NCBI RefSeq assembly: GCF_009863985.1
Contig: NZ_WEZT01000015.1
Coordinates: 1 to 64,000, forward strand
Source of the DNA: Furfurilactobacillus milii
Lineage (GTDB): Bacteria; Bacillota; Bacilli; Lactobacillales; Lactobacillaceae
Length of the DNA stretch: 64,000 bases
Reading direction: 5' to 3'
Position numbers and translations under genes: made by a program. Position 1 is the first letter of the stretch; each line of letters begins with the position of its first letter. This document shows, in pieces, positions 50,167-52,688 of this stretch. A model generated the notes under the pieces. That model worked only from the letters and a program-made list of their open reading frames with translations. It did not search any database and was not told the origin of the DNA.

Positions 50167-50195
50167 TTGAATCTTCTTTGGAACAGGGTTATATT
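50167..50195 (+). promoter_or_regulatory. promoter of the tandem tRNA genes
   Basis: TTGAAT (50167-50172) and TATATT (50190-50195), spacing 17. The start would be about 20 bases before the first tRNA. Confidence 0.6.
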
Positions 50196-50224: not shown

Positions 50225-50310
50225 GGAGAGTTACCCAAGTCTGGTTGAAGGGACACAATTTCGGTTGTGAGGTCAGCAATGACGCAGAGGTTCAAATCCT
50301 TTACTCTCCT
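50225..50310 (+). tRNA. serine-like tRNA with a six-base anticodon loop, copy 1
   Basis: Acceptor GGAGAGT/ACTCTCC, D-arm CCCAAGTCTGGTTGAAGGG, a long variable arm (GTCA-GCAA-TGAC) and T-arm AGAGG-TTCAAAT-CCTTT build a class II tRNA with serine-type D-arm. The anticodon stem CACAA/TTGTG leaves a loop of only six bases, TTTCGG. No serine anticodon (NGA, GCT) can be read in it, so it should not decode serine codons. Discriminator T, CCA not encoded. A FemX-type gene follows, which suggests use in cell wall synthesis. Confidence 0.8.
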
Positions 50311-50388
50311 TTATGAATCCATGGTAACGTCGGATTAGCGTTAGTGCCTAGCATTCATATAGTTGCATAATTTAACAGTTGTAAATAT

Positions 50389-50474
50389 GGAGAGTTACCC
50401 AAGTCTGGTTGAAGGGACACAATTTCGGTTGTGAGGTCAGCAATGACGCGGAGGTTCAAATCCTTCACTCTCCT
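50389..50474 (+). tRNA. serine-like tRNA with a six-base anticodon loop, copy 2
   Basis: It differs from copy 1 by only two bases, and these are partners: the first T-stem pair is G-C here and A-T there. Such a paired change shows that the fold is kept. Anticodon loop TTTCGG, variable arm and discriminator T are the same. It is 78 bases behind copy 1 and followed by a terminator. Confidence 0.8.
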
Positions 50475-50478
50475 TCTT

Positions 50479-50503
50479 GGGCATCGAAGTTCGGTGCCTT
50501 TTT
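50479..50503 (+). terminator. terminator behind the tandem tRNAs
   Basis: GGCATCGA and TCGGTGCC form an 8-bp stem (one G-T pair) with loop AGT and five T. Confidence 0.8.
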
Positions 50504-50538
50504 AATATCTAACTTTGTAGTATATAAAATGAAATGGT

Positions 50539-51798
50539 GTGAAAACTTTGCAAAAAGTACGCGAATTAACAGTTGAAGAATTCAGAACGTTTGAAGAGAA
50601 ATGTCCCTATGGTTCTTTTTATCAATCTGTGGAACAGGGTAACTTGATGCTAAAAGAAGGCCATAAAGCGGTCTATATGGGTCTTGTAGAAAACGATCAG
50701 ATTATCGTTGCCGGATTAATCGTTGGGATGAAGGTGCACTTTGGTTACCGGTTTGACATTTATGGTGGTCCATTGTTTATGCCCGGTTCAGAAACTAAGG
50801 CTAATTTAGCTGCTTTTGTAAAGCCAGTTGAAAAATATGTTCGTCAGCAGAATGGGATGTTCTTGCGACTGATTCCTAACTTAGCTTTTAAAACATACAA
50901 GGACGATGGCGAACTAATTGCGAGTCATTTTGACACGTTACCTGCATTATTTAAAGAATTAGGATATAACTATCAGAGTTACCACAGCGCTGGTTATGAC
51001 GAAGCAACTCATGTGACCCATTACGAGTATAAAAAAGACGTTCGTGATATGACGGAACAGACGTTGGAAAAAAGCTTCGACAAGAAAGCGCGCTATAACG
51101 TTAAGAAAGCCAAAGAATTTGGTGTTAAGTTACGCGATATTTCTTACGATGAATTACAGGAATTCAAGAAAGATACTGCACTTACGGCTGAACGGTTACA
51201 CTTCCCAGATAAGTCACTAGATTACTATCAGAATGTGTACCGTGAGTTTGGTAATAAAGTTCGCTTTGTGGTTGCTGAAATCGATTCAAACGAATATATC
51301 GATTCGTATCAAAAAAAGATTGCTGCTACCGATGATAAGATTGAAGCGCTCAAACAAAAAAACAAGGGCTACGAACAGCATAAAATCGATGACCTTGAAC
51401 GTCAAAAGGCTAACCATCAAAAGAAAATCGATGTCGCCAAAGATCTTCAAAAACGTTATCCTGCCAAGTTTAATGTTGCCAGAGCGATGTTTGTGATTCA
51501 ACCACAAGAAATCGATTACGTATTTAGTTACACGAATGAAGAATTCAAAACGTTCAAGGGTCCATTCATGTTGCAAGATGCCATGATGAAGGCCGCTGTT
51601 GACCAAAATATTCCGACGTACAACTTCTTGGGTGTTGCCGGACTCTTCGATGGTAGTGACGGTGTGTTTGAATTCAAACAAGGTTTTAATGGCTACACTG
51701 ACGAAATGATCGGTGAATTCTCCAAAGTGTTGATTCCACGGCGTTACAAGTTGTTGAACGCTATTAAGACAGTGTTGGGGCGTAGCAAACGTTTCTAA
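50539..51798 (+). CDS. FemX/MurM-type peptidoglycan bridge aminoacyltransferase
   Basis: A 419-residue FemABX family enzyme. Two GNAT-like halves are present: an N-terminal one with YGSFYQSVEQGNLM and YGGPLFMPG, and a second with NFLGVAGLFDGSDGVFEFKQGF near residues 355-376. Residues about 258-312 form the antiparallel coiled coil (KKIAATDDKIEALKQKN) seen in FemA and MurM. Such enzymes move an amino acid from aminoacyl-tRNA to lipid II. GTG at 50539 or TTG at 50548 may start it; the ribosome-binding site is weak. The two odd tRNAs lie directly upstream. Confidence 0.9.
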   Translation: MKTLQKVRELTVEEFRTFEEKCPYGSFYQSVEQGNLMLKEGHKAVYMGLVENDQIIVAGLIVGMKVHFGYRFDIYGGPLFMPGSETKANLAAFVKPVEKYVRQQNGMFLRLIPNLAFKTYKDDGELIASHFDTLPALFKELGYNYQSYHSAGYDEATHVTHYEYKKDVRDMTEQTLEKSFDKKARYNVKKAKEFGVKLRDISYDELQEFKKDTALTAERLHFPDKSLDYYQNVYREFGNKVRFVVAEIDSNEYIDSYQKKIAATDDKIEALKQKNKGYEQHKIDDLERQKANHQKKIDVAKDLQKRYPAKFNVARAMFVIQPQEIDYVFSYTNEEFKTFKGPFMLQDAMMKAAVDQNIPTYNFLGVAGLFDGSDGVFEFKQGFNGYTDEMIGEFSKVLIPRRYKLLNAIKTVLGRSKRF

Positions 51799-51822
51799 AA
51801 AGTTGAGATTTGAAAGATAAAG

Positions 51823-51876
51823 AAAATAACCGTTTGAAAATTACAAGTTGCACAGTAATTTCCAAACGGTTATTTT
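51823..51876 (+). terminator. terminator of the FemX-type gene
   Basis: AAATAACCGTTTG and CAAACGGTTATTT pair, extended inward by AAATTAC/GTAATTT. T runs are on both sides. Confidence 0.85.
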
Positions 51877-51910
51877 AGTAGCGTTAAATAGAATTGAATG
51901 GAGAAACAAA

Positions 51911-52583: not shown

Positions 52584-52629
52584 TCGACTACTAATCTAAC
52601 CCGTCCGTTTAAGTACATATTATTCGAAA

Positions 52630-52688
52630 AAAGAACCCCGAAGAGTGGCAGCGCTTCGGGGTTTTGACGAATATGTTACATTTAACTA
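52630..52688 (-). ncRNA. antisense antitoxin RNA of the Fst-type locus
   Basis: On the minus strand TTGCTC (52718-52723) and TATTTA (52695-52700), spacing 17, should start a short RNA near 52688. It holds the complement of the second direct repeat and ends at the shared terminator 52632-52665, about 60 bases long as in the known RNAII. Confidence 0.65.
52632..52665. terminator. bidirectional terminator shared by toxin and antitoxin RNA
   Basis: AACCCCGAAG and CTTCGGGGTT form a 10-bp stem with an A run before and a T run behind. Confidence 0.88.

Follow-up and report, generated by a model that had tools for sequence, protein, structure and literature searches.

FemAB-family enzymes build the peptidoglycan bridge with amino acids taken from tRNA, and for most instances it is described as "somewhat unclear" how wall enzymes divert charged tRNA from the ribosome (PMC4052509). 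The locus studied here raises this question directly: what are two tandem tRNA-like genes with a serine-type body and no serine anticodon doing upstream of a FemX-type gene? They lie in a stretch of 64,000 nucleotides from Furfurilactobacillus milii (hereafter the window), which corresponds to contig C7 in a genome of 2.38 Mb (G000). An original prediction, made from the letters of the window, had seen in them a dedicated tRNA supply for cross-bridge formation, kept away from the ribosome.

Results

Structure of the tandem RNAs

Copy 1 (50225..50310, plus strand) and copy 2 (50389..50474, plus strand) are each 86 nt long, and ARAGORN reports both as tRNA-???. With 42.1 and 42.5 bits, respectively, they exceed the Rfam gathering score of RF00005, as a tRNA cloverleaf should; together with a third RNA at C6:6880-6967 they are the three weakest of the 57 RF00005 matches in the genome. 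The acceptor, D, variable and T arms are all intact. The acceptor pairs are G1-C72, G2-C71 and A3-U70, the D loop keeps G19-G20 (G18-G19 in the standard numbering), the T loop reads TTCAAAT and the discriminator base is U73. The variable arm has four pairs, with junctions as in the genome's own tRNA-Ser(UGA) and tRNA-Ser(GCU), which places the body in the serine type. The two copies differ at just two bases, and these are mutual partners in the T stem: A49-U65 in copy 1 and G49-C65 in copy 2, with A51-U63 common to both. The original prediction of two serine-like tRNAs without a serine anticodon, differing at two T-stem bases that pair with each other, was thus borne out.

A serine anticodon in a seven-base loop, as in a decoding tRNA-Ser, is present in neither RNA. 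The loop had been read as six bases, TTTCGG, and this count stands if the standard five-pair anticodon stem is assumed. RNAfold adds an extra U-G pair, which gives a six-pair stem and a UUCG tetraloop. The resulting hairpin, CACAAU-UUCG-GUUGUG, occupies 50254..50269 (plus strand) in copy 1, where its pairs are kept in all seven distinct copies described below, and 50418..50433 (plus strand) in copy 2. In the predicted fold, a closed tetraloop hairpin describes the arm better than a six-base anticodon loop does. The gain in fold energy over shuffled sequences is modest, with z values of -1.5 and -1.9 and with 16 and 7 of 200 shuffles folding equally well (RNAfold). Decoding is ruled out by the sequence, as none of the copies has a usable anticodon. 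The short loop is also genuine, a point that resequencing had been proposed to settle: eight copies in four genomes share it, which excludes a sequencing error as its source.

Serine identity

In our R1 model, whose source sequences include both window RNAs, copy 1 scores 113.9 bits and copy 2 scores 114.5 bits, and in body the two RNAs most resemble tRNA-Ser(UGA). Ordinary tRNA-Ser(UGA) of Lactobacillaceae shares with them the D arm, the variable-arm junction, the T arm and, in most cases, U73, whereas its anticodon loop has seven bases; the tRNA-Ser(UGA) of this genome differs further in a longer variable arm and in G51-C63. Across the Lactobacillaceae loci that we read (L036-L060, L008 and L012), ordinary tRNA-Ser(UGA) carries mostly U73 and sometimes A73. 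At one of them (L059:1501-2133), in a genome from another genus, four tRNA-Ser(UGA) genes follow each other in tandem, and several members of this other genus carry additional copies.

G73 is usual in bacterial tRNA-Ser. U73 was rejected as a mark of lost serine identity, since the ordinary tRNA-Ser(UGA) and tRNA-Ser(CGA) of this genome carry U73 as well. The usual alanine signal, G3.U70, is absent because A3-U70 stands in its place. One serS gene scores over the family cut-off in the genome. Given that serine identity depends on the variable arm rather than the anticodon (PMC9976931), that U73 is found in the genome's own serine tRNAs and that there is one SerRS, charging with serine is plausible.

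The pairs A49-U65 and A51-U63 are the weak EF-Tu pairs of the wall tRNA-Gly of Staphylococcus aureus (PMC4052509). Both are present in copy 1 and in the tandem copies of three relatives (G001-G003). Copy 2 has G49-C65, and the 88-nt RNA of this genome (see below) has G49-C65 and G51.U63. A51-U63 also occurs in the Val, Arg, Pro, Thr, Leu(UAG) and Ser(CGA) tRNAs of this genome and in one of its Met tRNAs, and tRNA-Val has A49-U65 too. As ordinary tRNAs here share them, we have demoted the weak pairs from a proof to a moderate argument, so that weak EF-Tu binding by these RNAs is no more than possible.

The FemX gene and its surroundings

A FemX-type gene does follow the pair, as had been noted. 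It starts 64 nt downstream of copy 2 (50539..51798, plus strand) and encodes a FemAB-family aminoacyltransferase of 419 aa (PF02388, E=9e-97, 325 bits); in three relatives the pair likewise lies close upstream of the gene. The product spans profile positions 1-405 of 406 and hence a full-length FemAB domain. Its closest solved structure is S. aureus FemA (1lrz, E=1.2e-41, residues 6-414), and it shows 90% identity to proteins from Furfurilactobacillus rossiae DSM 15814 and F. milii. Judging from its sequence, FemX would transfer an aminoacyl group from tRNA to a peptidoglycan precursor.

Two FemAB types of the genus are linked to RNAs of this kind, and they sit in different subclades of a FemAB tree with several long branches and some unresolved forks. 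The genus has two other full-length FemAB types without a tRNA inside 1.5 kb, which means that a FemAB enzyme can do without such an RNA neighbour; in the window's genome, an ordinary tRNA cluster lies ~1.9 kb from one of these RNA-free types. In F. rossiae DSM 15814 (G002:C8:41113-42330), the DNA upstream of the pair has given way to a further FemAB paralogue and to an ORF that, by eye, seems to begin like a hexapeptide acyltransferase, and the promoter-like hexamers described next have been kept. With this further paralogue upstream, the tRNA pair in F. rossiae has FemAB genes on both sides.

Upstream of the pair, a consensus scan marked a promoter-like site, TTGAAT-17-TATATT (50167..50195, plus strand), such sites being no more numerous than in shuffles (6 found, 6.5 expected). 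Its hexamers and spacing are identical in 4/4 aligned loci, including F. rossiae with its rearranged surroundings. After the pair, an intrinsic terminator-like hairpin is followed by a T run (50479..50499, plus strand); here too the scan count is that of shuffles (1 found, 1.3 expected), and a hairpin with a T run stands at this position in 4/4 aligned loci despite 66-67% identity of the whole stretch. A long inverted repeat after femX (51821-51878), which microRNA models match below threshold, may be a terminator that separates femX from the gene after it. A G+C-rich hairpin followed by a T run lies at 52627-52687 on the minus strand, where the small-RNA families NsiR1 and SpF66 match weakly, below threshold.

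Selection on sequence and fold

Twelve copies were found, and nine entered the pair analysis, seven of them distinct; the three left out are identical to kept ones. In the seven distinct copies, all 25 stem pairs are standard in every copy (175/175 cells), for a structure that was itself derived from the same sequences. When the partners were slid, pairing fell to 46-54%. Four pairs have changed on both sides, a number reached in 17/500 shuffles. The number of further pair types, 9 against 8.9 in shuffles, shows no excess.

The tandem RNAs of this genome are 97-99% identical to those of three relatives, compared with 67-68% for the spacer and 66-67% for the stretch downstream. In the same comparisons, femX shows a dN of about 0.054, a dS of 0.98-1.10 and a DNA identity of 84-85%, so its synonymous sites are saturated (dS about 1) where the RNAs are nearly unchanged. 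The 100-nt segment that precedes the pair shows 95% identity in two of the three relatives, so the RNAs are not the sole conserved stretch; in F. rossiae this segment is rearranged. The complete pairing and the identity of the RNAs beside saturated synonymous sites support the earlier claim that the fold is under selection.

Distribution and co-occurrence

We compared six Furfurilactobacillus genomes, that of the window (G000) and five others (G001-G005), of which G002 is F. rossiae DSM 15814. The window-type femX is found in G000, G001, G002 and G003, and the tandem RNA pair in the same four. The second FemAB type is found in G002, G003 and G005 and, truncated, in G000, and an 88-nt RNA in the same four. 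In G004, both RNAs and both FemAB types are missing. Each RNA type thus occurs only with its FemAB type in 6/6 genomes, a count behind which stand few independent events, as G001-G003 are closely related, and in which the missing tandem pair of G005 is tentative, that genome being 87% complete. By a rough estimate, the probability that chance alone places two loci at most 200 nt from one of five femAB genes is 1e-5.

Outside the genus, a tRNA recognisable to ARAGORN, which detects solely RNAs within its recognition, stands at 0/54 FemAB loci within about 1.5 kb on each side (less at contig ends). The 54 comprise 25 and 29 loci among the matches listed; eight are second pieces of counted genes, and one (L115) falls under the family cut-off.

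Over 397 family genomes, R1 scores of 96.8-114.5 bits occur, among the matches listed, in five of the six genus genomes only, compared with 66.4 bits for this genome's own tRNA-Ser(UGA) and at most 76 bits among the other family matches listed. The 25 further R1 loci that were read (L036-L060) are all ordinary Ser(UGA). A search of relatives for the six-base loop had been proposed; the short-loop pattern matches in 4 of the 397 family genomes, all of them Furfurilactobacillus. A UUCG-arm pattern matches in 8 of 395 genomes of the order, G000 alone being real. The seven others were rejected; one is an ordinary Ser(CGA) tRNA and six are without a tRNA. Plasmid and phage records hold no similar sequence, and viral contigs none by pattern. 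These R1 and pattern searches reach RNAs of similar build and would miss strongly diverged or differently built ones.

A second locus

The 88-nt RNA of the window's genome (C6:6880-6967) also has no usable anticodon and also stands beside a FemAB match. Its RF00005 score of 32.4 bits exceeds the cut-off of 29, and cmscan with Rfam's fast filters does not report the RNA at its locus. A seven-pair stem closed by a UUUU loop is a possible reading of its arm, a hairpin that appears in the minimum-energy fold and is absent from the centroid; 42/200 shuffles fold equally well. The 88-nt RNAs of G002 and G003 are identical to it at 88/88 positions, which says little in the case of G003, as the flank after the RNA is 142/150 identical as well. 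In G002 and G003, the RNA is divergent from an intact FemAB gene at a distance of about 119 nt (118-119 nt between matches). The FemAB neighbour in the window's genome (L004:1480-2103) has lost its 5' half, whereas the RNA is unchanged; either the RNA is kept without this neighbour or the loss in FemAB is recent. The expectation that relatives would not have these RNAs without a femX-type gene therefore needs a qualification: no such relative was seen among the six genomes, but this genome itself keeps the 88-nt RNA beside a truncated FemAB.

G005 has a relative of the 88-nt RNA, with a UUCG loop on seven pairs, at the start of a contig. The first 22 bases of that contig recur near the end of the contig with the second FemAB type, which suggests that the two are probably neighbours across the contig break. 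Three forms of arm have thus replaced the anticodon: a UUCG loop on 6 pairs, the same loop on 7 pairs and a UUUU loop on 7 pairs.

Discussion

We propose that the tandem RNAs and their 88-nt relative are dedicated, non-decoding seryl carriers for wall-bridge synthesis by FemAB enzymes, a reading to which we give a probability of about 0.7 on comparative sequence evidence. The single SerRS of the cell would charge the RNAs, whose acceptor stem, elbow and long variable arm are kept; this is possible because serine identity does not use the anticodon. The closed tetraloop hairpin would prevent decoding, so that serine placed on these RNAs would be lost to the ribosome. The adjacent FemAB-family transferase would use the seryl-RNA and add serine to the bridge of a lysine-type peptidoglycan precursor. 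We infer that the RNAs are expressed, that they are serylated, that this FemX uses them and that serine is the bridge amino acid. The bridge of Lactobacillus rossiae is reportedly L-Lys-L-Ser-L-Ala2. One published table gives the peptidoglycan type of L. rossiae as "not available" (PMC7488000). The dedicated supply that the original prediction had proposed gains comparative support from two loci in two FemAB subclades, the co-occurrence in 6/6 genomes, the selection on the RNAs and the 0/54 loci outside the genus, all of which point to it at the level of sequence.

To our knowledge, the wall tRNA-Gly genes of S. aureus retain a glycine anticodon and do not cluster with the fem genes. These non-proteinogenic tRNAs, used by FemX, FemA and FemB, are likewise additional isoacceptors believed to be set aside for wall synthesis, and they share A49-U65 and A51-U63 with copy 1, whereas they are of the glycine type and have the D-loop GG, kept here, replaced by UU or CU (PMC4052509). 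MurM of Streptococcus pneumoniae and FemX of Weissella viridescens are FemAB-family enzymes that transfer Ser or Ala from tRNA to the stem-peptide lysine, and G2-C71, kept in these RNAs, is important to the W. viridescens enzyme; the accessible part of the source mentions no dedicated tRNA gene beside either transferase (PMC4052509). Among the literature matches listed, which mostly lie outside subscription journals, we found no description of anticodon-less RNAs in lactobacilli. Wall-dedicated tRNAs are already known from S. aureus; the lost anticodon and the linkage to transferase genes are new.

An unlikely alternative is that the RNAs are uncharged regulators, that is, tRNA-shaped small RNAs that control femAB-type genes or the cell-wall stress response, as proposed for tRNA-Other of Bacillus cereus. 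Like the RNAs described here, tRNA-Other is a pseudo-tRNA outside translation, and with its cell-wall and antibiotic phenotype, exerted via gene expression, it provides a precedent; unlike them, it retains a Trp anticodon; it accepts lysine poorly, and a genomic island adjoins it (PMC3399842). The promoter-like site and the terminator-like hairpin that flank the pair would suit a regulator, as would the persistence of the 88-nt RNA beside a truncated FemAB. However, the acceptor stem, elbow, variable arm and U73, kept as in tRNA-Ser, would be superfluous in a regulator, and the hairpin, whose loop varies between UUCG and UUUU, leaves little for base pairing.

Aminoacyl-tRNA transferases as a class have several acceptors, and it is thinkable, at somewhat longer odds than regulation, that the RNAs are dedicated carriers for a FemAB enzyme whose acceptor is a lipid, a teichoic acid or a protein, or that the amino acid is not serine. 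MurM accepts mischarged tRNA (PMC4052509), and serine is here a deduction from sequence features. Against another amino acid, the long variable arm, A3-U70 and U73 speak against charging with Ala, Leu or Tyr. Against another acceptor, FemX aligns almost end to end with S. aureus FemA, a bridge enzyme, and Furfurilactobacillus entadae is without meso-diaminopimelic acid (PMC12397155), which fits a bridged wall in the genus and does not show one.

That the RNAs are decaying tRNA-Ser pseudogenes, retained by chance or as integration sites, is very improbable: ARAGORN assigns them no identity and they have the lowest RF00005 scores of the genome, but they are tandem copies with no broken pair in seven distinct sequences, pairs changed on both sides and near identity at saturated synonymous distance, and nothing similar is found in plasmid and phage records or, by pattern, in viral contigs.

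If the RNAs are dedicated seryl carriers, a further and more doubtful extension is that each of the two FemAB paralogues has its own anticodon-free seryl-RNA, and that such cognate pairs set the residue and its place in the bridge. On that view, Furfurilactobacillus would have physically split its tRNA pool, with a bridge assembly line outside the genetic code in which tRNA is reduced to an amino-acid handle and an elbow, with a UUCG or UUUU hairpin in place of the anticodon.

RNAs that tRNA finders file as undetermined can be under selection. Were the carrier reading true, the answer to how a wall enzyme diverts charged tRNA would be written in the gene, as an RNA without an anticodon cannot be meant for translation. 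In a sourdough and food bacterium, the question of tRNA diversion would thereby be open to test by the deletion of two small genes.
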